Assembly: GCA_963169235.1 (NCBI GenBank)
Contig: CAUJCX010000018.1
Location: 1-64,000 of the forward strand
DNA length: 64,000 nucleotides
Direction: 5' to 3'
Source of the DNA: Actinomycetota bacterium
GTDB lineage: Bacteria > Actinomycetota > Thermoleophilia > Miltoncostaeales > Miltoncostaeaceae
Position numbers and translations under genes: made by a program. This document shows positions 1-11,441 of this stretch, one piece after another. A model generated the notes under the pieces. It did no database searches. It saw nothing but the letters and a program-made list of their open reading frames with translations, and was not told the origin of the DNA. Position 1 is the stretch's first letter; every line of letters begins with the position of its first letter.

Positions 1-3000
1 GTCGTCCTCCGCGCCAGTTGCGCTCGAACGCGCCCACGAGCACCCCCGCCCCCTGTTTCACGCGCTCGTGCGGCGTGACCGTGTTCCAGCTCTTCCACGC
101 CACCCCGCGGGTCGGTACCAGGGTGTCGCCCGTCGCGATGCCGACGCCGATGTCGCCCCCGGTGCGGCTGGTGAACGTGCCGTCGGGATAGGGGATCAGC
201 ACCTGGTGGCTGGACGGGTCGGCCATCGCCAGGAGGCGCCACGGGATGCGCACCTCGATGGTGGAGCCCTTCGCGTCGATGAGGTTGCGGGTGTCGCCCC
301 CGGGAAGGGCCGGGTCGCCCGGGCCCCACGGCAGGCGTGAGACGTTGACGGTCTCGGTGGGGCTGTACGTGCCCAGCACCGGCACCGTGTAGGGCTTGTT
401 GAGCATGAGGCGCGGTTCCAGCCACACGCCCGATCCCTGCCGGAGCGCCGTGGGGTTGCCGGGCAGCATTCCCAGCGCCTGCGGCCCGTACTGGTTGGGG
501 ATGGGGTCGATCCACGCGGCGCGCACCAGGCGGGCCCGGCGTCCCGGGCCGATCTGGAGGGCGACGTCGGCGCCGGGCATCACGCCCGGGTGGCCCGGCA
601 GGCCGCCGTTGTCGCCCGGCGTCACGTCGAAGCCGACGGTGAGGGTGCCGGTGCGCCACGCCTGCGGACGGGCCGTCTGGATGCGCAGCGTCACGTGCTC
701 CTCGTCGGTGAGCGCGTCCACCGCGGTGACGGGTCCCGACGTGGCCTGCTGGATGCGCCGGCCCCCGGACGACGCCCACGCGTCGGGCTCGCCGTCGAGC
801 CGCGTGGCGGGCATCGCGGACGCGTCCTGCGCCATGAGGCCGAAGTGCTCCTCGTTGGTGTACGTGTCGCGCCACATCGCCCGGCGGTCGGCCGGGATGT
901 CGTAGTCCATGGTGTTCCACGTGAACTTGAACCACTCGTCGGTCCACGAGAACACCAGGCCGCCCGCGTACCGCTGCTCGCGGATCACGTCCAGCATGTC
1001 GGCGTTCTTGCGCATCGCGTCGGCCTCGGAGTGGTCGCCCTGATCGCGTCCCAGAGGTCCGCGGTGCGCCACGCCGAGGCCGCTGGGGACGCCGAACTCG
1101 GTCACCATCACGGCCTGGTCGGTGTGGTGGGCCCGCAGCGCATGGAGGTAGCCGGCGTACGGGTCCACCTTGCCGCCGGGGCGGCGGTACGCGGCGTACT
1201 CGCGCGACCAGCGCAGGAAGTCGGGGTAGTACGGGTACGCGTGGTACGACGCGAAGAAGCCGGCCGGCCACGCGCGGGTGGACGTGACGTGCATCGGGTC
1301 GACGCTCACCATGTCCTCGCGGTCGAGCGGCTCCTCGGGGTGACTCAAGGGGTCGACCGTCAGCCAGTTGGTGAACGTGACGGGACGCGCCCAGCCGCGG
1401 GCGGCCTCCAGACCAGCCAGGTGGTCGAGCATCTCGGCGATCCACGACTCGGTGGGCGTCGGGGTGCCGCGCGTCGTGATGTAGCGCCCCTGGTACGGGG
1501 CGCGGCCGGCGTTCGTGCGGTCCGACTCCTCGGTCGCGATGGGGTCCCACTCGACGCCGGGAGACCACGCCAGCAGCCACGGCGACACGTCGGCGCGGTA
1601 CGTCCCGCCCGCGTGGCCCCGCTTCTTCGGGATGGTGATGTCGCCGTGCACCACGCCCACCACGTCGGCGATCTCCCGCTTGAAGCCGTCCACCACGGGG
1701 GCCCGGTACAGGTCGTGGTGCTCCAGGAAGTCGTCCTCAGGGATCCAGACTCCCTGGATGAGGTACAGCGGGCGGCGCGGGTGCGCCAGGTTGTACTCGC
1801 GCAGCGCCCGGTAGAAGCCGGGCGACAGGATGGTGTAGATGCGCACCGTGCGCACGCCCATGGTGCCCATGCGCGCGAACCAGCGGGCGGCGGTCTCGTG
1901 GCTGATCGCGACCTCGCCGGGGGCGTGCCCGGGGGTCGTGGAGCCCACGTTCACGCCCGGCCAGAAGCGGGTCTCGAAGCCCCGCGCCGTCGCCACCTGA
2001 ACCGCGCTGCGGGTGGCGCGCGCGGGCAGGCGCAGGCCGTTGACGCGGATGGTGGTCGCGCGATCGGTGGTGGCCGTCACGGGCCAGGGATCCGACGTCA
2101 CGGGCGCCTGGCGGTCGAGCGCGGCCATCTTCGCGACGGCGCGGCTCTCGCGCAGCGTCTGCCACCCCATGGCCCCGCCCCACACCACGGCGAACGCGAG
2201 CCCCGCCCCCACCGCCGCCCGCACCACGCGCACCGCCACCGAGTGCTCCCGCGCGATGGCGTTGAAGTCGACGCGCGTCATCTCGCCCCACCCATGGCCC
2301 CTCACCAGCGTGATGAACGCCCGCGCCCGCACGAACGACGACCACTGGCGGTAGCCGAAGTTCTCGACGAACGCGGCGGTCACCATGCGGCCGACGCACG
2401 TCCACGACGCGTAGCGCCGGTACGCGCGGTCCTCGATCAGGAGGGCCCCGAAGCTGAGGATGAGGCCGTACGTGAGGGCCAGCACCAGCATCGCGAGGGC
2501 GATGCGCTGGTCGACCAGGCCCAGCACGAGGGCGAGGATGGTGGCGGAGTAGCCGAGCACCTCGGCGATGGGGCCGAGCCCCTCGAACACCACGTGGTAC
2601 GGCATCGCCAGCATGCCCGTCGCGCCGTACTTGCGGCGGAACAGCATGCCGCGGTGCTTCCACAACAGCTCGATCAGCCCGCGGTGCCAGCGGTCGCGCT
2701 GCCGGGCCAGGAAGCGGGCGCTGTCGGGGGCCTGCGTCCAGCACACGGGGTCGGCCAGGAACTGGATCTTGTAGGGGATCTCGTGGTCGCAGCAGTAGCG
2801 GTGCAGGCGCACCACCAGCTCGGCGTCCTCCCCGACGGTGTTGGTGTCGTACCCGCCGGCGGCGATCACGATCTCGCGCCGGAACACGCCGAACGCCCCG
2901 CTGATGACCAGCAGCGCGTTCATGCGCGCCCACCCGGCCCGGCCGGCCAGGAACGCGCGCAGGTACTCCACGATCTGGATGTTCTCGAGCAGCTTGCGCG

Positions 3001-3658
3001 GCGTGCGCACCTGGATGACGCGGCCGTTCTCGACGCTGCTGCCGTTGGCGATGCGCACGACGCCGCCGCAGGCCACGGTCTCGGGCTCGTCCTGGAACGG
3101 CCGCACCAGCCGCAGCATGGCGTCGTCGTCGATGATGGTGTCGCTGTCGATGGTGCAGAACAGCGGATAGCGGGCGTAGTTGAGCGCCACGTTGATGGCG
3201 TCGGCCTTACCGCCGTTGACCTTGTCGATCACCACCAGGCGGTCGTCGTCGGGGCACAGGTAGACGCCGACGACGTCGTTGGTGGGCAGGTTCGCCCGCG
3301 GCACGCGTGACACCTCGGTGAGGGCGAACGCCTCACGCAGCACCCGCAGCGTGTCGTCCTTGGATCCGTCGTTGACGACCAGCACCTCGTGCAGCGGGTA
3401 GTGGGCGCGCAGAAGCGCCCGCACCGACTCCACGATCACCGGCTCCTCGTTGTACGCGGGCACCAGGATGCTCATGGGCGTCGTCAGCTGCGACGTGCGC
3501 ATGTCGTCGAGGTCGGCGAACCGGCGGCGCCGCACGTAGAGGTTGCCCTCGCGCCAGCCCAGCACCAACAGCCACGTGTACGCGATGTTCAGCCCGATGA
3601 AGTAGACGAGCATGGCGACGTTCACCCAGAACATCACCTGTGTGACGTGTTCCCTCAT
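1..3658 (-). CDS. GT2 glycosyltransferase fused to a glycoside hydrolase-like domain, partial
   Basis: The reading frame is open from the ATG at 3658 to the left edge, giving 1219 residues with the C terminus missing. Residues 8-34 form a membrane segment. A family 2 glycosyltransferase domain follows: SILVPAYNEE near 63-72, VNDGS near 95-99, DSD at 171-173, ED near 277, and QRDRW at 320-324, the D,D,D,QxxRW set of processive cellulose synthase-type enzymes. Membrane helices lie near 350-430. From about residue 510 the chain resembles a TIM-barrel glycoside hydrolase: WSPGVEWDP near 700, VTEFG near 852 (a clan GH-A-like nucleophile Glu) and WTDEW near 905; a beta-rich carbohydrate-binding-like part follows. 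It overlaps the upstream HEAT gene by ATGA. Likely role: synthesis or trimming of an extracellular polysaccharide (inference). The GT2 part is certain, the hydrolase assignment moderate. Confidence 0.85.
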   Translation of the reverse strand, partial: MREHVTQVMFWVNVAMLVYFIGLNIAYTWLLVLGWREGNLYVRRRRFADLDDMRTSQLTTPMSILVPAYNEEPVIVESVRALLRAHYPLHEVLVVNDGSKDDTLRVLREAFALTEVSRVPRANLPTNDVVGVYLCPDDDRLVVIDKVNGGKADAINVALNYARYPLFCTIDSDTIIDDDAMLRLVRPFQDEPETVACGGVVRIANGSSVENGRVIQVRTPRKLLENIQIVEYLRAFLAGRAGWARMNALLVISGAFGVFRREIVIAAGGYDTNTVGEDAELVVRLHRYCCDHEIPYKIQFLADPVCWTQAPDSARFLARQRDRWHRGLIELLWKHRGMLFRRKYGATGMLAMPYHVVFEGLGPIAEVLGYSATILALVLGLVDQRIALAMLVLALTYGLILSFGALLIEDRAYRRYASWTCVGRMVTAAFVENFGYRQWSSFVRARAFITLVRGHGWGEMTRVDFNAIAREHSVAVRVVRAAVGAGLAFAVVWGGAMGWQTLRESRAVAKMAALDRQAPVTSDPWPVTATTDRATTIRVNGLRLPARATRSAVQVATARGFETRFWPGVNVGSTTPGHAPGEVAISHETAARWFARMGTMGVRTVRIYTILSPGFYRALREYNLAHPRRPLYLIQGVWIPEDDFLEHHDLYRAPVVDGFKREIADVVGVVHGDITIPKKRGHAGGTYRADVSPWLLAWSPGVEWDPIATEESDRTNAGRAPYQGRYITTRGTPTPTESWIAEMLDHLAGLEAARGWARPVTFTNWLTVDPLSHPEEPLDREDMVSVDPMHVTSTRAWPAGFFASYHAYPYYPDFLRWSREYAAYRRPGGKVDPYAGYLHALRAHHTDQAVMVTEFGVPSGLGVAHRGPLGRDQGDHSEADAMRKNADMLDVIREQRYAGGLVFSWTDEWFKFTWNTMDYDIPADRRAMWRDTYTNEEHFGLMAQDASAMPATRLDGEPDAWASSGGRRIQQATSGPVTAVDALTDEEHVTLRIQTARPQAWRTGTLTVGFDVTPGDNGGLPGHPGVMPGADVALQIGPGRRARLVRAAWIDPIPNQYGPQALGMLPGNPTALRQGSGVWLEPRLMLNKPYTVPVLGTYSPTETVNVSRLPWGPGDPALPGGDTRNLIDAKGSTIEVRIPWRLLAMADPSSHQVLIPYPDGTFTSRTGGDIGVGIATGDTLVPTRGVAWKSWNTVTPHERVKQGAGVLVGAFERNWRGGR

Positions 3659-4695
3659 GCCACCTGTATGTGTCGCGCGGCGTCCATCAGCGCGAGCGCC
3701 TCGGCGGCGCGGTCGCGGGCGAAACGGTCGCCCGAGTCGAGCGCGCGCCGCAGGCCCGCGACGCCCGTCGGGCCCAACTGCGACAGGGCGGAGGCCGCGT
3801 TGGCACGCACCCACCAGTCGGTGTCGCGTAGCGACACCTCGAGCACCGGGGCGGCGCGCCGGTCGCCCAGCTCGCCCAGGCTGCGGGCCGCCATGGCGCG
3901 CACGGTGTGCGACGGGTCGCCCATCGCGAACAGCAACAGCGGCACGGCCTGCGCGCACCCCAGGCGTCCCAGCGCGCGGCACGCCCGCAGGCGTTCGTCG
4001 TCGTCGCCGTCGCGCACGAACCGGGCCACCACGAACATCGCGGACTGCTCTCCCGACAGGCCGAGCGCCGCGATGAGGTCGCCGCGCGAGTCGACGCTCT
4101 CGGGCCGGGTGAGGGCCTCGATCATCGCCGGCACCGCGAACGGGTAGGACAGCTGCTCCACCAGCCGGTCGCCCGGCAGGCTGGCGCGCATGAGCCCGTC
4201 CACCAGGTGACGGGCCGACGTGTCGTCACCGCGGCGCGACAGGGCGCGGGCCGCGACCCGGCGGGCCTGGCGGTCGGGGTCCTCGTGCAGCACGCGGGCC
4301 ACGTGCGTGAGGTCGTCGTCACGGCCGATGAGGACCACCAGCTCGGCCCCCAGCGCCCGGTGCTCGGCGTGACGGTGCGTGGTGTCGGCGATGGCCACGT
4401 CCACCAGCGCCCTGGGCGCGTGTGGGCGCAGCACGGCGGCCGGTGTCCTGCGCGCCACGTCCACCAGGTCGATGCGGGTCTCGCGGTGCCCCACGGCGAC
4501 GCGGGCGGCGTCGCGGAGCACCGCCTCGTCGCCCGTGATGAACGCCCGCGACAGGATCTCCCGGCGACGTGCCTGACGGGCCTCCCGGCGATCACGCCGG
4601 ATGCGCGCGATCACCAGGGCGACGCTGAGAAGGCACAGCAGCGCGATCGAGACCACGGTAAGCGGTATCGCCACGCCCAGCATGTACCTGTCCAC
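3655..4695 (-). CDS. membrane-anchored HEAT-repeat protein
   Basis: 346 residues from a GTG at 4695; GGAGG sits 5 nt upstream, whereas the next ATG (4683) is too far from it. The open frame continues upstream to 4992 but that part is low-complexity and crosses the divergent promoter region. Residues about 6-30 form one membrane helix followed by a basic stretch, then the rest is tandem alpha-helical HEAT/PBS-lyase-like repeats, recognisable by VRAMAARSLGELGD and VRANAASALSQLG. Such repeats make protein-protein contacts. Its stop codon overlaps the start of the glycosyltransferase by 4 nt, so the two are translationally coupled and probably act in the same membrane complex. No enzyme motif seen. 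Confidence 0.8.
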   Translation of the reverse strand: MDRYMLGVAIPLTVVSIALLCLLSVALVIARIRRDRREARQARRREILSRAFITGDEAVLRDAARVAVGHRETRIDLVDVARRTPAAVLRPHAPRALVDVAIADTTHRHAEHRALGAELVVLIGRDDDLTHVARVLHEDPDRQARRVAARALSRRGDDTSARHLVDGLMRASLPGDRLVEQLSYPFAVPAMIEALTRPESVDSRGDLIAALGLSGEQSAMFVVARFVRDGDDDERLRACRALGRLGCAQAVPLLLFAMGDPSHTVRAMAARSLGELGDRRAAPVLEVSLRDTDWWVRANAASALSQLGPTGVAGLRRALDSGDRFARDRAAEALALMDAARHIQVA

Positions 4696-4852
4696 CGTCA
4701 CCTCCCCGCGCGCGTCATTCGGAGCCACATCGGCGCCGGGGCCGCCCGATTGAGGCCCGCGCCACCCGTCCGGGACGGTGGGCCCGCAGTGCGGGACGAA
4801 CGTGCCGCGGCGAGTTGAAACTTTTCTGTGTGGTCGCTTGTCGCAGGAGGTG

Positions 4853-5416
4853 ATGAACTCACGACACACAGGATCTGGTGGATGGGCGGACCCGGGCGAC
4901 GCAGACGGCGTCGGGTCGGCGCGGGCCGGCACGCGGGACGCCGCCGCCGGCACGGATCCGCGGGTGCCCGATCCCGCCGAGCTCGGCCCCATCGCCCTGC
5001 GGGTGGCGCGCTACGCGGGCGAGCACGAGCTGGACGTGCTGGAGCTGGGCTTCATGCTGCAGTCGGTGCCCGAGGCGGCCCATCTGCGCGACTGGATCCG
5101 GCGCCGCCTGGCGCCGTTGCTGGGGGCGTTCGCCGCTTGGCCGCGTTCTGCGGCCGCCCCGGTGGCGTCCAGCGCCGCCCCGTCGCCGTGCCCGGCCGCG
5201 GCCGCGCTGGTGGGCATCGCCGCCGTGCTGGGCGCTGTTGAGCGGCACCACAGCGCCGACGCGCGCACGGTGTGGGCGGATGCGGGGCCGCACGAACGCG
5301 CCCGCATCGCGGAGGGCGCCCGCCTGGCGCTGGCCGCCGACGGACCAGGTCTCGAGCGCGCCTGGCGCCGGGCGGTGGCGGTGTGGCACGCCTCGCCGGA
5401 CGCCCCCCGCCCCTAG
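4853..5416 (+). CDS. hypothetical protein
   Basis: About 187 residues. A perfect AGGAGG at 4845-4850 lies only 2 nt before the ATG at 4853, closer than normal, so the exact start is uncertain. The N-terminal 45 residues are Gly/Ala/Asp-rich and probably disordered; the middle (ELGPIALRVARYAGEHELDVLELGF) is helical and acidic; an Ala-rich stretch follows near 110-150. No family recognised, no signal peptide. It is divergent from the HEAT gene and convergent with the small gene after it. The upstream TTGAAA at 4815 has no convincing -10 partner. Confidence 0.5.
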   Translation: MNSRHTGSGGWADPGDADGVGSARAGTRDAAAGTDPRVPDPAELGPIALRVARYAGEHELDVLELGFMLQSVPEAAHLRDWIRRRLAPLLGAFAAWPRSAAAPVASSAAPSPCPAAAALVGIAAVLGAVERHHSADARTVWADAGPHERARIAEGARLALAADGPGLERAWRRAVAVWHASPDAPRP

Positions 5417-5417
5417 G

Positions 5418-5612
5418 TCAGACGGCCACCATCAGGTCGAACCCGTCGCCGGGCAGGTCGAGCAGGGTGGCCAGCTCGGCCCGCAGACGCTGACCGCCGT
5501 CGCCGGCCGCGACATCCAGACAGCGGACGCCCCCGGACGGCACCGGCACGCACACCGCCCAGCCCTCGTCGTCGCGCGGCCGCGCCCGGGCCGTGATGAA
5601 CGCGCGTTCCAT
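5418..5612 (-). CDS. hypothetical small protein (64 aa)
   Basis: The ATG at 5612 was chosen because GGGAGG sits 8 nt upstream; an in-frame ATG (5630) and GTG (5639) lie further up without a ribosome site. A TAGGGT -10-like hexamer at 5638-5643 would give a leader of about 20 nt carrying that site. The product is soluble, with a pattern (TARARP...EGWAVCVPVP...VRCLDVAAGDG) compatible with a small beta-rich fold. No family recognised. It ends two bases after the convergent neighbour's stop codon. Confidence 0.5.
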   Translation of the reverse strand: MERAFITARARPRDDEGWAVCVPVPSGGVRCLDVAAGDGGQRLRAELATLLDLPGDGFDLMVAV

Positions 5613-5698
5613 GGGATCGTCCTCCCGCATCGATTGCACCCTACGGACCGGTATGACCGCCGAAGAGTTCGCGGGTCCGGTGCGACGCGGGCCACGGC

Positions 5699-5731
5699 GC
5701 GCCCCATCCCCATGGCTGCGGGGTGGGGCGC
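5699..5731 (-). terminator. strong GC hairpin downstream of the FakA/DegV gene
   Basis: GCGCCCCA-T-CCCC pairs with GGGGTGGGGCGC across an 8-nt loop, about 12 paired bases with one bulged T. It lies 30-60 nt past the stop of the minus-strand gene at 5762. There is no U-tract, so termination would be of the U-less type common in GC-rich actinobacteria (inference). Confidence 0.5.
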
Positions 5732-5761
5732 GGGCGCGTCACATGCGTGTCACCGCGCGGC

Positions 5762-8236
5762 TCAGCGCGCGAGGAAGCAGATGCCCAGGGCTCCCGGCCC
5801 GACGTGCGCCCCGATGACCGCCCCGATCTCGGCGGTGCGCACCGACACGATGCCGGGACGTGAGGTGACGACGGCCTGCTCGAGCCGCGCGGCCTCCGTC
5901 GGCCACGCCGCGTGCAGCACGACCACGTCGATCTGGGGGAACCCGGCCGATCGCCGCAGCATCACGTCGAGCAGCGCCGGGATGACCGCGCGCCGCCCGC
6001 GCACCCGGCGCACAGCGTCCACCTCGCCGTTCACCAGCTCGAGGATCGGGCGCACCCGCAGAATCCCCCCGATCAGCGCGCGCCCCCGGCCGATGCGCCC
6101 GTTGCGCTGCAGGTACTCCAGGGTGTCGGCGCTGAACACGATGCCGCCGCGGGCGGAGACCGCGCGCACGTATTCCTCCACCTCGTTCACCGTGGTGCCG
6201 CGGTCGAGCATGCGCTGCACCCCGTCCACGGCCAGCGCCAGCTGACCGGTGGCCGCGAGCGTGTCGAACACGTGCACGCGGGGCCCGAACGTGGCCGCAC
6301 CCGCCTCCGCGCTGTCGACGGTGGACGAGAGCTTGCCCGAGATGTGCAGGCTCACCACGTCGCGGTAGTGCTCCAGAAGGTCGCGGTACGCGTCCTCGAA
6401 CGCTCCCGGCGACGGCGCCGACGTGCGGGCGATGTCGGGAGAGCGCCGCAGACGGTCGTAGAACGCCGTGCCGTCCAGGTCGACCGCGTCGAGGTACTCG
6501 TCGTCGCCGAACCGCACGGTCAGGGGCACCATGCGCCACGACGGCCGCAGCACGTGGTCGGCGGTGATGTCGGCGGTCGAGTCGAACACGATGCCGGTGG
6601 TGGCACCGTCGAGGCGGCGCCCCTTGGGGTGGGCGGCCAAGAGCAACGGGTAGTGCGCCTGACCCCCCGCGTGCTGGTCGATCTCGAGCGACGGGTACGC
6701 CGCGGAGATGGCGCCGACGGCCGCGTCGACGGAGTCGCGCGGGGTGCTGTCGTCGCCGCGCAGTACCAGCAGGGCCTGCCGCTCGGGCGTGATCATGGTG
6801 GCCGCCACGCGGGCCGCCACCTCGCTGAGGCGCGGGGACGTCGCCACCAGGCGGTTGTCCACCAGCCCCATCCACGTGCCGGCGACGACCGCGACGCCCT
6901 CCACCTTGGCGTCGCGCGACGCCCGCGTGATCTCGGCGGTGGCGGTGGCCGCGATGGCGGCGCGCATGGCCGCCGCGTTGTCCTCGGCCGAGTGCTGCGC
7001 GCTGTAGGCGTCGAGCGCCACCAGCCCCGCGGTCATCGCCCGGGTCTCCACCACCACCACCGGGCGCTGCGCCAGCGCCGCCGCGCTGCGCGCCGCCAGC
7101 AGCACGTTGGGGTTGTTGGGCAGCACCACCACCTCGTCCGCCGCGCACGCGTCGATGGCGTCGAGGATCTCCTCGGTGCTGGGGTTGACGGTCTGGCCGC
7201 CCGGCACGATGCCGCGCGCGCCGCGCTGACGGGCCAGCGCCTCGTTGCCGTCCCCCTGCACCACCGTGACCACGTCGCAGCGGCGGTGGCGCCCCGGCTC
7301 CGGCGTCCCCTCCGACAGGCGCCGGCGGCGGTCGACCACCTGGGCCTGCATGTCGGAGACCTCGATGCCCGACAGGCCGCCGTGGCGGGCGCCGATGGAC
7401 AGCGCCGCCCCGGGATCGTCGGTGTGTACGTGCACGCGCACGGCGCCGGGATCGCCCACCACCAGCAACGAGTCGCCCAGCGGTGCGAACAGGGCGTGCA
7501 GCACGTCCACGTCCATCCCGGCGCCGGGATCGAGCAGCAGGAACCCGGTGCAGTACCGGTACCGCGATTCCTCGTTGTGGTCGTGCACCACGGGCGACGA
7601 CGACTCCGCCGTGTGCGCGGTGGACGGTTCGCGTCCCCGCATGCCGGCCACGGAGCCGCGCACCAGCTCCACGATGCCCGCGCCGCCCGCGTCCACCACC
7701 CCGGCGTCGGCGAGCGCCTGGAGCATCGTGGGGGTGCGCGCCAGGGCATCCTCGCCGCGGCCGAGGATGCGGTCGAGCACGGCGTCGATCGGCTCGCCGC
7801 GGGCCGCCTCCGCCTCCTCCGCGATCTCGCGGATGACCGTCAGCATGGTGCCCTCGACGGGCGTCTTCACCGACGCGTAGCCGGCGTCGCTGGCGGCCCG
7901 CAGGGCACGGGCCAGGGCGGCCGCGTCCACGTCCTTCTCGGCCCCCAGCGACGTCACGAAGCCCCGCAGGATCTGCGAGAGGATCACGCCCGAGTTGCCG
8001 CGCGCCCCTACCAGGGCCGCCCGGCTGATGCGCTGGGCCAGCGCCTCGGTGTCGCTCGATTCGGGTGCCGACTGCAGGTCGCTGATGACCCGCTGCACCG
8101 TCTGGAGCATGTTGGTGCCCGTGTCACCGTCGGGCACGGGGTACACGTTGAGGTCGTCGATGCGCCGGCGCGAGCGCTCGAGGGCCGCGACGGCCGCACG
8201 GGCGACCTGGCCAACCCTGGCGTGGATCGGTCTCAT
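5762..8236 (-). CDS. fatty acid kinase: FakA (DAK2/DhaL) fused to a DegV/FakB domain
   Basis: 824 residues from the ATG at 8236 (MRPIHARVG); the frame is open to 8428 but the extension is low-complexity. Residues 1-200 are a DhaL/DAK2 nucleotide-binding domain with VPDGDTGTNM at 34-43 and GARGNSGVILSQ, as in FakA (YloV). The middle matches the FakA linker and C-terminal region (NPSTEEILDAI, VVVLPNNPNVLLAA). From about residue 545 a DegV/FakB fatty-acid-binding domain begins (IVFDSTADI, TSAPSPGAFEDAYRDLL, HISGKLSSTVDSA). In Firmicutes FakA phosphorylates acyl chains held by a separate FakB; here both are one chain. Expected role: activating exogenous fatty acids for lipid synthesis. It is divergent from a TetR gene that may control it. 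Confidence 0.88.
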   Translation of the reverse strand: MRPIHARVGQVARAAVAALERSRRRIDDLNVYPVPDGDTGTNMLQTVQRVISDLQSAPESSDTEALAQRISRAALVGARGNSGVILSQILRGFVTSLGAEKDVDAAALARALRAASDAGYASVKTPVEGTMLTVIREIAEEAEAARGEPIDAVLDRILGRGEDALARTPTMLQALADAGVVDAGGAGIVELVRGSVAGMRGREPSTAHTAESSSPVVHDHNEESRYRYCTGFLLLDPGAGMDVDVLHALFAPLGDSLLVVGDPGAVRVHVHTDDPGAALSIGARHGGLSGIEVSDMQAQVVDRRRRLSEGTPEPGRHRRCDVVTVVQGDGNEALARQRGARGIVPGGQTVNPSTEEILDAIDACAADEVVVLPNNPNVLLAARSAAALAQRPVVVVETRAMTAGLVALDAYSAQHSAEDNAAAMRAAIAATATAEITRASRDAKVEGVAVVAGTWMGLVDNRLVATSPRLSEVAARVAATMITPERQALLVLRGDDSTPRDSVDAAVGAISAAYPSLEIDQHAGGQAHYPLLLAAHPKGRRLDGATTGIVFDSTADITADHVLRPSWRMVPLTVRFGDDEYLDAVDLDGTAFYDRLRRSPDIARTSAPSPGAFEDAYRDLLEHYRDVVSLHISGKLSSTVDSAEAGAATFGPRVHVFDTLAATGQLALAVDGVQRMLDRGTTVNEVEEYVRAVSARGGIVFSADTLEYLQRNGRIGRGRALIGGILRVRPILELVNGEVDAVRRVRGRRAVIPALLDVMLRRSAGFPQIDVVVLHAAWPTEAARLEQAVVTSRPGIVSVRTAEIGAVIGAHVGPGALGICFLAR

Positions 8237-8304
8237 GTGCTCGCTGTCGGGAGGATGCGGGGACGCGACAGTACCAACGCGCCGACGTCGCCGTGGGACG
8301 CGCA

Positions 8305-8330
8305 CGCAGCGGAATGATCGGTCCGCTGCG
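8305..8330. repeat. inverted repeat, possible TetR operator
   Basis: Perfect 9-bp arms CGCAGCGGA and TCCGCTGCG separated by 8 bp, in the divergent spacer between the FakA/DegV gene and the TetR gene. Its dyad size (26 bp) suits a TetR dimer. Function is inference. Confidence 0.55.
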
Positions 8331-8342
8331 GTGGACGGATGC

Positions 8343-8370
8343 GTCGGTGCGTTTACCGGGAGGCACCGAC
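8343..8370. promoter_or_regulatory. second inverted repeat over the TetR -35 region
   Basis: Perfect 8-bp arms GTCGGTGC and GCACCGAC with a 12-bp spacer. The spacer contains TTTACC (8352-8357), which is 18 bp from the -10 hexamer of the TetR gene, so a bound repressor would block that promoter (inference). Confidence 0.5.
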
Positions 8371-8375
8371 CGGGG

Positions 8376-8381
8376 TACGAT
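8376..8381 (+). promoter_or_regulatory. -10 element, leaderless start of TetR gene
   Basis: TACGAT ends 7 nt before the ATG at 8389, so transcription should begin at or next to the start codon. Possible -35 TTTACC at 8352. Confidence 0.55.
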
Positions 8382-8388
8382 GGGGGGC

Positions 8389-9009
8389 ATGCCAGCCGCC
8401 ACGCGCCCCCAGCCGACGTCGCCCGCACGCGACCGCATCCTCGACACCGCGTGCGCGCTGTTCTACGCCCAGGGGCTGCGCGCAGTGGGCGTCGATCTCC
8501 TGATCGCCCGCTCGGGGGTGGCGAAGGCCACGTTCTACAAGCACTTCCCCAGCAAAGACGACCTCATCGTGGCGTACCTGGGGCGCATGGCCGACGACCG
8601 CCAGGCGGCCCTGGTGGCCGCGGTCGACGCCGCCGGTTCGACCCCCGCACAGCGGCTCACCGCGGCGCTCGACGCCCTGCCCGCGATGCAGGCCGCGAAG
8701 GGCTACCGGGGATGCGCGTTCATCAACGCCGCGGCCGAGGCCGCTGCGGGCGGCTCCATCCAGGCCCGCGTCGCCGAGCAGCGCGACTGGACCCTGGCGT
8801 GGCTGACCGACCTGGCGATGCAGGCCGGGGCGTCCAAGCCCGCCGAGCTGGCCGCGAGCCTGTCGGTGCTGATGGACGGGGCGCTCGCCGCGGGATCGGT
8901 CGACCCGCGTGACGCGACCCCGGTGGAGGCCTCGGTCGACGCGGGCCACCGCCTGGTCAAGCGGTCGCTGAAGGCCCCCTCAAAGCCGGCGGGCAAGCAC
9001 AAGAAGTAG
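8389..9009 (+). CDS. TetR/AcrR-family transcriptional regulator
   Basis: 206 residues. The N-terminal helix-turn-helix is clear (RILDTACALFYAQGLRAVGVDLLIARSGVAKATFYKHF, written here as the usual TetR pattern, residues about 16-53). The C-terminal ligand domain contains GYRGCAFINAAAEA, typical of a TetR subgroup that often controls nearby reductases or transporters. The start is set by TACGAT-N7-ATG; no Shine-Dalgarno is present. Two inverted repeats upstream suggest autoregulation and control of the divergent FakA/DegV fusion. The C terminus is lysine-rich. It converges on the HerA-like gene with a 14-bp gap. Confidence 0.9.
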   Translation: MPAATRPQPTSPARDRILDTACALFYAQGLRAVGVDLLIARSGVAKATFYKHFPSKDDLIVAYLGRMADDRQAALVAAVDAAGSTPAQRLTAALDALPAMQAAKGYRGCAFINAAAEAAAGGSIQARVAEQRDWTLAWLTDLAMQAGASKPAELAASLSVLMDGALAAGSVDPRDATPVEASVDAGHRLVKRSLKAPSKPAGKHKK

Positions 9010-9023
9010 CGCCCTCCGCCGGG

Positions 9024-11441
9024 TCACGCGGCCGGCAGCCAGGCCAGCACCAGCTGGGTCACCCGCACGTCGGTCTTCTCCAGGGCGACGGGCGACACGG
9101 TGACGTCCTTCGCCGCCGCGTCCCAGCGGTTCTGGATCTCCAGCACCTCGGACGACAGCTCGTCCTCGAGTCGCTGGATGCCCTCGTCGAGGCGCGACAC
9201 CTTGTCGCCGGCCGCCTCGATGCGACGCCCGTCGGCCCCGCCGCCGCGTGCCCCGCCGATGCCGCGGATGACGGCGCCGGCCATGCTGCGCGTGTTGCGG
9301 CGCCCTCCCAGGAGCCCTCCCAGGATGGAGCCCGCCGCGTGCAGCAGGTCGCTGTTGCGCCGGCTCTTGGCCTGGGCCTCCAGCACGTCCTGGCGGTCGG
9401 CGGCCGTGGCCCGCTGATCTTCGAGCCGGCGGATCTTGTCGTCGTACTTGGCGCGCAGTTTGGCGGTTTCGGCGTCGGCGCGCTCGTCGGCGGCCGCCTC
9501 ACACCGCGCGGCGAACGCGGCCTCGTCCTCCCCCGGGCGGCTGTAGATCTTGAGCGTCTTGTTGGCCTGGATATCGAGGCTGCGTCCCCTCACCAGCGCG
9601 TCGACCAGGTCCTTCTCGACCCGCGTCCAGGTGGTCTTCGCGGCCAGGTCAGCGTCGGGCAGGTGGTAGCGCACGCCGTCGGGCGGGGCGGGCGACAGGT
9701 CGCGGTCGTCGTAGTCGACGGCGATGGCCTTCGTCGCGTCGATGACCGACGTCAGCGGGTGGACGACGGCCTCGTACTCCTCGTCGTGCACCAGGTCGGC
9801 GGCGGTGTCGTCGTAGCGCAGCGAGACGCGGGCGAGGATGGCGGCGGAGCGCGCGGTGCCGCGCGGGTCGGCGCCGGCGGCCTCCAGCCACGGCGCGCCC
9901 GGGTCGGCGTAGAAGACCCCCACTCCGGAGGCCACTGCCGGGGCGACGGGCGTGGTGCCGTCGTCGACCGGCGGCGCGGCCGGTGCGGGCGCGTCCGCAG
10001 GCGTGGGGGCGGCCGACGCACCGTCGGCGACGGGCGCAGGCGCGGGCGCGGCAGCGGCCGTGGACGTGGACGTCCCCATCAGCTGCGCGATCTGCTCCCG
10101 GGTCAGCGGGCCGCGCAGGTAGCTCATGGCCCAGCGCGTGGTCATCAGCTCGGGAGCGTCCTTGCCCGCCCGGCGCAGCACGAACTGCCGCTTGGCGAGC
10201 CCGCCGATCTGGTCGCCCAGCGCGGCCAGGTCGGTGCCTCCGGCGGCGGCGCTCATGCCTTCAAGCAGGCGGCTCTTGTCACGCTCGGTCTGCAGCCGCC
10301 CGATCATCCAGGTGCCCGCGTTGGAGATGGCCTTGTAGTCGATGTCGACGGGGTTCTGGGTCGACAGCACGAGCCCGACGCCGAACGCACGCGCCTGCTT
10401 CATGAGGGTCATGATGGGCGCCTTGGTGGGCGGCGCGGCGGTGGGCGGCACGTAGCCCGCGACCTCGTCCATGTACACCAGGGCGCGCAGGTCGGTGGTG
10501 CCCGACTGGCCCCGCATCCACGTCACCACCTTGCCCAGCACCAGCGCCGTGACGAACTGGCGCTCCTCGTCCGACAGGTGGGACGTGGTCACGATGGCGC
10601 AGCGCGGCGTGCCCGACGGCGTGAACAACATGTCCTGGATCGACAGGGGCGTGCCCTGGGCCCACGCGGCGAACGACGGGCTGGCGATGAGGCCGTTGAG
10701 GCGCATCGCCAGCGCGGTGCGGTCGGCGGGCGGGAAGAACGCGTCGAGCTCCAGCACGCCCAGCTTGCGCATGGGCGGCGTCTGCACCTGGCCCACCAGG
10801 GTCGCCAGGTCGAGGTTCTTGCCGGCCGACCACGCGGTCTCGATGAGGTTCGACAGCAGGATGTGCTCGCGACTGGCGAGCGGGTCGGCGTCGATGCCCA
10901 CCAGGCCCAGCAGGCCCGACACGTAGCCCGCCACCTCGTCGCGGATGGCCTCAGGGTCGGTGCCCGCCGCGGGGGCGTTGAGCGCACCCACGATGTTCAC
11001 GGCGCGCCCGGCGGTGGAGCCGGGCGTGTAGATGGTGAAGTCCACCTTCTCGCGCAGGGCGGCGATGCGCTCGGGGCCGATGCCCCAGTCGGCCAGGCCC
11101 GCCCGCCACGCGTCGGCCTGGGCGGCCGCGTACTGGTCGACCGTCTGCCCCGCCTTCTGCGCGTCGCCCGGGTTCACCCAGGGGGCGAAGTCGGCGGCCG
11201 CCAGGTTCGGGAACGTGAGGCACAGGTTGGTGAGGTCGCCCTTGGGGTCGATGAGCAGCGCCGGGACCCCGGCGGACAGGCACTCCTCGATGAGCACCAC
11301 GCCCAGGCCGGTCTTACCGGACCCGGTCATGCCCACGATCACGCCGTGGGTGGTGAGGTCTCCGGACGCGACGACGCACGGCGTGTCGGTGCGCTTGCTG
11401 GTGGCGGGGTCGACCTGCGCCCCGAGCGTGAGATCAGCCAT
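9024..11441 (-). CDS. HerA-like (DUF87/DUF853-type) ATPase with C-terminal coiled coil
   Basis: 805 residues. An N-terminal FtsK/HerA-superfamily ATPase occupies about 1-480: Walker A GMTGSGKTG at 37-45, LLIDPKGDL, Walker B LVYMDEVAGY near 320, and STQNPVDIDYKA after it. A Pro/Ala-rich linker (about 480-530) leads to a separate domain, then a charged coiled coil (KYDDKIRRLEDQ, LDEGIQRLEDELSSE) flanking a Gly-rich helical segment (LLGGRRNTRSMAGA). The family moves or positions macromolecules using ATP; the specific substrate is unknown. Expression appears leaderless (TAGGCT-N6-ATG). The small unknown gene downstream in its own orientation (upstream physically) is not coupled to it. Confidence 0.8.
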   Translation of the reverse strand: MADLTLGAQVDPATSKRTDTPCVVASGDLTTHGVIVGMTGSGKTGLGVVLIEECLSAGVPALLIDPKGDLTNLCLTFPNLAAADFAPWVNPGDAQKAGQTVDQYAAAQADAWRAGLADWGIGPERIAALREKVDFTIYTPGSTAGRAVNIVGALNAPAAGTDPEAIRDEVAGYVSGLLGLVGIDADPLASREHILLSNLIETAWSAGKNLDLATLVGQVQTPPMRKLGVLELDAFFPPADRTALAMRLNGLIASPSFAAWAQGTPLSIQDMLFTPSGTPRCAIVTTSHLSDEERQFVTALVLGKVVTWMRGQSGTTDLRALVYMDEVAGYVPPTAAPPTKAPIMTLMKQARAFGVGLVLSTQNPVDIDYKAISNAGTWMIGRLQTERDKSRLLEGMSAAAGGTDLAALGDQIGGLAKRQFVLRRAGKDAPELMTTRWAMSYLRGPLTREQIAQLMGTSTSTAAAAPAPAPVADGASAAPTPADAPAPAAPPVDDGTTPVAPAVASGVGVFYADPGAPWLEAAGADPRGTARSAAILARVSLRYDDTAADLVHDEEYEAVVHPLTSVIDATKAIAVDYDDRDLSPAPPDGVRYHLPDADLAAKTTWTRVEKDLVDALVRGRSLDIQANKTLKIYSRPGEDEAAFAARCEAAADERADAETAKLRAKYDDKIRRLEDQRATAADRQDVLEAQAKSRRNSDLLHAAGSILGGLLGGRRNTRSMAGAVIRGIGGARGGGADGRRIEAAGDKVSRLDEGIQRLEDELSSEVLEIQNRWDAAAKDVTVSPVALEKTDVRVTQLVLAWLPAA

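Follow-up and report, generated by a model that had tools for sequence, protein, structure and literature searches.

Positions 1 to 4,695 of a 64,000-nucleotide stretch from an Actinomycetota genome (Miltoncostaeaceae; GenBank assembly GCA_963169235.1, contig CAUJCX010000018.1; "the window" below is the whole stretch) encode a HEAT-repeat protein and, overlapping its end, a long protein that joins a family 2 glycosyltransferase (GT2) to a predicted glycoside hydrolase (GH) barrel of the clan GH-A type. Together these are best read, with a probability of roughly 0.7, as a synthase-dependent exopolysaccharide system coupled to the HEAT protein and equipped with a dedicated hydrolase or transglycosylase. 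The case is carried by the gene order, the fusion itself, the predicted fold and conserved acids of the hydrolase, and the dependence of the hydrolase on one GT2 subfamily across genomes. The features are:

3655..4695 (-): HEAT-repeat protein, 346 amino acids (Pfam HEAT_2, 5.6e-29; hydropathy peak of 2.85 in residues 1-35)
3655..3658 (-): ATGA overlap of the HEAT stop codon (TGA) with the GT2 start codon (ATG), read from the sequence
2..3658 (-): GT2 - transmembrane - GH-A-like fusion protein of at least 1219 amino acids, open from its ATG without a stop and cut by the contig end
2669..3484 (-): GT2 domain, residues about 59-330 (Pfam Glycos_transf_2, 5.9e-24; Glyco_tranf_2_3, 5.5e-22)
3137..3148 (-): DSDT, residues 171-174 (motif in translation)
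2687..2701 (-): QRDRW, residues 320-324 (motif in translation)
2177..2242 (-): transmembrane helix between GT2 and hydrolase, residues 473-494 (hydropathy)
824..1978 (-): GH-A-like TIM barrel, residues about 561-945 (AlphaFold2, pLDDT 96; Foldseek; VIA-align)
1550..1552 (-): Glu703 in WSPGVEWDP (motif from residue 698), candidate acid/base (conservation and model secondary structure)
1097..1099 (-): Glu854 in VTEFG (motif from residue 852), candidate nucleophile (conservation and model secondary structure)
2..796 (-): C-terminal, mainly beta domain, residues about 955-1219 (strands in the AlphaFold2 model)

The two halves of the fusion protein

Base 1 of the window is base 1 of its contig, one of 65 in a 2.94-Mb genome, so the contig has no genes to the left and the C-terminus of the fusion protein is missing; a preliminary description of this DNA, made from the sequence alone, had the protein extending beyond 1219 residues, and the open frame is indeed ended by the edge of the contig and not by a stop codon. 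Separate hydrolase relatives stop at most about 20 residues from the point where the frame is cut, so that probably little has been lost.

For the first half, Pfam and NCBIfam return only GT2. The best NCBIfam match, the poly-N-acetylglucosamine synthase PgaC/IcaA (TIGR03937), scores 128.5 bits, far short of the 422.3 bits of its equivalog cut-off. Three motifs are present: DSDT at residue 171, which in processive GT2 enzymes serves sugar-nucleotide and metal binding, GED at 276, and QRDRW at 320, in such enzymes the acceptor and processivity motif. Hydrophobic helices lie at residues 5-35, about 360-410 and 473-494. The protein thus carries the D, DxD, (T/G)ED and QxxRW signature and the membrane helices of processive GT2 synthases, and its processivity is predicted from them; the processive-type GT2 of the preliminary description is borne out by these motifs together with the Pfam match (5.9e-24).

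The second half yielded nothing above cut-off in Pfam (GH17, PF00332, included, over the window protein as a whole), no NCBIfam match of weight, and no match in PDB sequence searches, including those with an 88-row profile; among the PDB members of GH157, that profile retrieved no chain at E values up to 10. An AlphaFold2 model built from the 88-row alignment (pLDDT 96, pTM 0.95), which supersedes an earlier one from four rows (pLDDT 42), is a GH-A-type TIM barrel. Its nearest solved structure is the GH157 enzyme LaGH157 (Foldseek E 5.4e-12; by VIA-align, Z 33.4 and a root-mean-square deviation of 2.3 A over 317 residues, at 14% identity), followed by GH2 glucuronidases at Z of about 27; these structural matches belong to clan GH-A. 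On this model, the domain would have the GH157 fold while showing no sequence similarity to the GH157 members in the PDB.

Two glutamates stand out as candidate catalytic acids. Glu703, just after barrel strand 4 in the model, is kept in 86 of 89 alignment rows, and Glu854, on strand 7, in 87 (the 89 rows include the window and L147, which contains X and was left out of the 88-row alignment); D907 and W909 are kept in all 89 and E908 in 88. Clan GH-A enzymes have a TIM barrel whose acids follow strand 4 and lie on strand 7, and the modelled domain conforms to this. The GH-A-like region that the preliminary description had placed in the same chain as the GT2 therefore stands: the frame is uninterrupted, the motifs fall at 698 and 852, and the finding that would have refuted it, a C-terminal region lacking a TIM barrel or conserved catalytic acids, was not made, the model having the barrel and the alignment the acids. 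Judged from the model, the second half appears to be a GH-A-type barrel whose family is represented by no model found in Pfam or NCBIfam, and this exopolysaccharide system likely contains a new GH-A family. The last 260 or so residues are mainly beta strands in the model and likely form a carbohydrate-binding sandwich, with a putative resemblance to CBM9/DOMON.

Spread of the hydrolase and its link to the synthase

A scan of GTDB genomes for the hydrolase gave 224 candidates, 175 of them relatives, from which 80 loci were kept. The homologues are mostly separate anchored proteins and come from at least nine phyla: Actinomycetota, Bacillota, Bacteroidota, Acidobacteriota, Myxococcota, Gemmatimonadota, Ignavibacteriota, Delongbacteria and Cloacimonadota. 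A record from Deinococcus joined them after the scan. Several Micromonosporaceae carry the hydrolase. Among 88 hydrolase rows, 26 have a lipobox-like site, 41 a hydrophobic anchor or signal (fused rows counted), 18 neither and three a cut start; with a lipobox or anchor, the hydrolase would sit on the outer face of the membrane. Loci L076, L077 and L080 carry the hydrolase gene in two tandem copies.

A link to the synthase comes from 296 sampled genomes of Actinomycetota: 19 have the hydrolase (E up to 1e-8) and 47 the GT2 subfamily (E up to 1e-50), and every one of the 19 has both (hypergeometric 1.7e-17, without correction for kinship). The reverse does not hold, 28 genomes having the GT2 subfamily without the hydrolase. 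By BLAST, a GT2 lies within a flank of about 8 kb in 29 of the 80 loci, many of these flanks being short; where 6 kb or more is available on either side (44 loci), a GT2 is found in 17 and a HEAT gene in 10. Co-occurrence and flank counts taken together indicate that the genes are often apart, yet that in the 296-genome sample the hydrolase never occurs without the synthase.

The HEAT partner and receiver domains

The HEAT protein of the window begins with a transmembrane helix; a strongly basic segment comes next and then the repeats, an order from which the repeats are predicted to be cytosolic. HEAT genes are found in 17 of the 80 loci by BLAST and in 21 by profile, and in all 21 the gene is directly upstream of the GT2 on the same strand; the gap, estimated from positions extrapolated from the profile, ranges from -36 to +11 bases in 20 loci, while the remaining one has +74. 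The window has this same HEAT-coupled GT2 module, with HEAT directly upstream of GT2 at near-zero spacing: the coupled membrane HEAT protein of the preliminary description is supported by the ATGA overlap, the HEAT_2 match (5.6e-29) and the conservation of the coupling in relatives. A strong N-terminal helix is present in 17 of the 21 HEAT proteins, 16 of them with a net charge of at least +3 after it, which would put the repeats in the cytosol; the same scan found no helix in the remaining four. Some genomes in which no hydrolase was found, G048 and G050 among them, have HEAT-GT2 pairs too.

Receiver domains, counted on any strand and at any place in the locus, accompany 18 of the 21 HEAT-bearing loci as against 5 of the other 59 (Fisher 1e-10, kinship ignored), and Pfam confirms them in all seven relatives scanned (L069, L060, L066, L079, L082, L112, L126). 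RefSeq annotation, made independently, is in line with this: on a plasmid of Deinococcus radiophilus, a TPR protein, HEAT and a glycosyltransferase with overlapping ends, and in Mesorhizobium ciceri, response regulators, a YaiO barrel, HEAT, GT2 and Hpt. Pfam finds GGDEF domains in proteins near the HEAT and glycosyltransferase genes in L069, L060 and L079; a direct diguanylate-cyclase link was considered and set aside as weak, the strict GGDEF pattern being present in only 5 of the 80 loci. Whole genome G000 has 53 GGDEF matches in 2.94 Mb, high for its size, none of them tied to this locus.

Fusions of the hydrolase

On a tree of the hydrolase (L035-L037 and L147-L148 left out as duplicates), four changes separate fused and apart states, with five fused rows. 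One of the five, L139, was dropped as a fusion, its frame containing 74 X from N bases. The GT2-hydrolase fusion then stands at three places, the window, two Cellulomonas and L141, and from its placement among these sequences it appears to have arisen at least three times. L148 has a GT2 plus the start of a hydrolase in a single frame, and a hydrophobic stretch at the join was seen by eye in L082, L085, L141 and L148. The fusion is a local form of a cassette whose parts are usually carried by separate genes.

Other partners occur as well. In L095 (7785-11141) and L107 (7698-11183) the hydrolase shares a chain with Polysacc_deac_1, and several rows from Gemmatimonadota and Acidobacteriota show, by eye, a fusion to TPR-like repeats; in L124 (4509-9437) it is split over two adjacent frames, the second of which continues into TPR repeats and a BCSC_C barrel. 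The gene after the hydrolase in L125 has a weak Polysacc_deac_1 match, under cut-off. The deacetylase-GH-A-like fusions of L095 and L107 are a possible parallel to PgaB.

Proposed mechanism

From these data we infer the topology of the fused protein, its catalysis and the role of the HEAT protein as follows. The GT2 half would draw on a nucleotide-sugar donor in the cytosol to build the polymer and would extrude the chain through its own membrane helices. Beside it on the cytosolic side, the HEAT protein, anchored by its one N-terminal helix, would act as scaffold, regulator or gate; in most relatives a phosphorelay may set its state. The GH-A-like half, tethered outside the membrane, would meet the emerging chain and cut, trim, release or re-join it, as a form of length control or release; this external domain probably trims the sugar chain. 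Diderm relatives would add a TPR/barrel exporter.

A broader version is more tentative, and the odds are slightly against it: that this is an undescribed class of exopolysaccharide system in at least nine phyla, in which a phosphorelay-coupled membrane HEAT solenoid gates the GT2 and a new GH-A family processes the nascent chain, with the synthase, porin and deacetylase fusions pointing to action during export. A concrete module of receiver, HEAT, GT2 and GH-A can be named in groups with largely uncharacterized matrix polysaccharides; a large enzyme family that neither Pfam nor NCBIfam models comes into view with its catalytic residues predicted; and with the fused form, how one polymer is made and how it is processed could be studied together in one gene.

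Alternative explanations

Could the fusion frame have come about by chance, as two independent genes read through in GC-rich DNA, or through faulty assembly? The majority of relatives do encode GT2 and hydrolase as separate genes. Positions 1-4700, however, contain no N bases and the 1219-residue frame no stop, at the join or elsewhere, and codon-position GC is uniform along it, the third-position value (GC3) being 0.95-1.00 in all twelve full 300-base blocks; these observations together identify one coding sequence and exclude chance read-through. L082, L085 and L141 moreover have the same fusion order and a hydrophobic stretch at the join, without N bases, and both halves are present together in all 19 hydrolase genomes of the Actinomycetota sample. 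An accident or artefact is therefore extremely improbable.

As to the polymer, the leading guesses are a beta-glucan, suggested by the hydrolase fold and a GH16-like neighbor in L118, and an N-acetylhexosamine polymer, for which the deacetylase fusions speak, as does PgaC/IcaA being the named GT2 closest to this one. The L118 cassette (Bacteroidota, 1679-10385) consists of a YaiO barrel, a gene without Pfam match in the HEAT position, a GT2, hemerythrin repeats, a GH16-like gene and the GH-A gene. A poly-N-acetylhexosamine made by a pathway like that for poly-N-acetylglucosamine (PNAG), with the GH-A domain replacing the PgaB hydrolase, would be a rival as to substrate and compatible with the architecture proposed here. 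The 128.5-bit PgaC/IcaA match and the Polysacc_deac_1 fusions, with the sub-cut-off match in L125, speak for it; the distance of that score from 422.3, a fold nearest to a laminarinase family, the GH16-like gene of L118 and the lack of a Pfam deacetylase domain in the window protein make it rather doubtful. Still less probable is a second half that works as a transglycosylase or cyclase, cutting and re-joining the nascent chain into cyclic or branched oligosaccharides. The nearest published architecture, a GT2 with an external GH17, is proposed to cleave and cyclize beta-1,3-glucan (PMC10237404), and the closest fold belongs to a beta-1,3-glucanase family; there is no sequence kinship to GH17 by Pfam, however, and the TPR/BcsC-type or YaiO barrels of diderm relatives fit secretion of a long chain better than periplasmic rings. 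Two further links were pursued: one to the sporangium matrix polysaccharides of Actinoplanes, prompted by the hydrolase of several Micromonosporaceae, was dropped, since the imp cluster is described as of Wzx/Wzy type and GimA/GimB as GH5 (PMC13390465, PMC12691653), and one between Cellulomonas and curdlan was sought in the literature and not established.

Several points weigh against a HEAT-coupled synthase with a dedicated chain-processing enzyme. The sole genome of the same genus lacks both the hydrolase and the GT2 subfamily, and 51 of the 80 hydrolase loci have no GT2 in the flank examined, so the neighborhood is not universal. Lipobox sites were assigned by regular expression, transmembrane topology was derived from hydropathy, and the candidate acids were placed from the secondary structure of the model. 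No receiver-domain protein was found in the window (tblastn, 1e-3); its module would therefore be a reduced, fused form.

A neighboring gene

At 5762-8428 (-), an 888-residue frame contains DAK2, FakA-like middle and C-terminal, and DegV domains by Pfam, in which fatty acid kinase subunits A and B appear to be fused.

Comparison with known systems

The open-access literature searched yielded no account of a polysaccharide system of the HEAT-GT2 or HEAT-GT2-GH type. The preliminary description had suggested an unusual exopolysaccharide machine here, and this reading is supported; it could not see that the fusion is a local form of usually separate genes, or that a GT2 and a GH in one chain have a precedent in pseudomonad GH17-GT2 proteins, which are proposed to make cyclic beta-glucans (PMC10237404). 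Like those BcsA-like orphan (NdvB-like) proteins, the window protein would combine in one membrane protein a GT2 on the cytosolic side and a TIM-barrel GH outside; unlike them, it has its barrel C-terminally where their GH17 is N-terminal, and the barrel is of another, unassigned family and found in other phyla. The available text of that report describes no HEAT-repeat partner (PMC10237404).

The PNAG system (PgaA-D) is likewise built on a GT2 synthase, and diderm relatives of the window system add an external hydrolase or deacetylase and a TPR barrel porin. The window differs in a GT2 far below the PgaC/IcaA cut-off, a GH-A-type hydrolase nearest GH157, and the HEAT partner. YaiO-type and BcsC-type outer-membrane export proteins are neighbors or fusion partners in diderm relatives; none was found next to the genes described here. 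Most Actinomycetota are monoderm.

The closest solved fold (Z 33.4) is that of the GH157 endo-beta-1,3-glucanases (LaGH157, PDB 9g5g and 9g4n), and a GH157 member is reported to act on beta-1,3-glucan (PMC10229575). Unlike GH157, to which it shows 14% identity and no sequence-profile match, the window barrel is linked to a synthase rather than to a glucan utilization locus.
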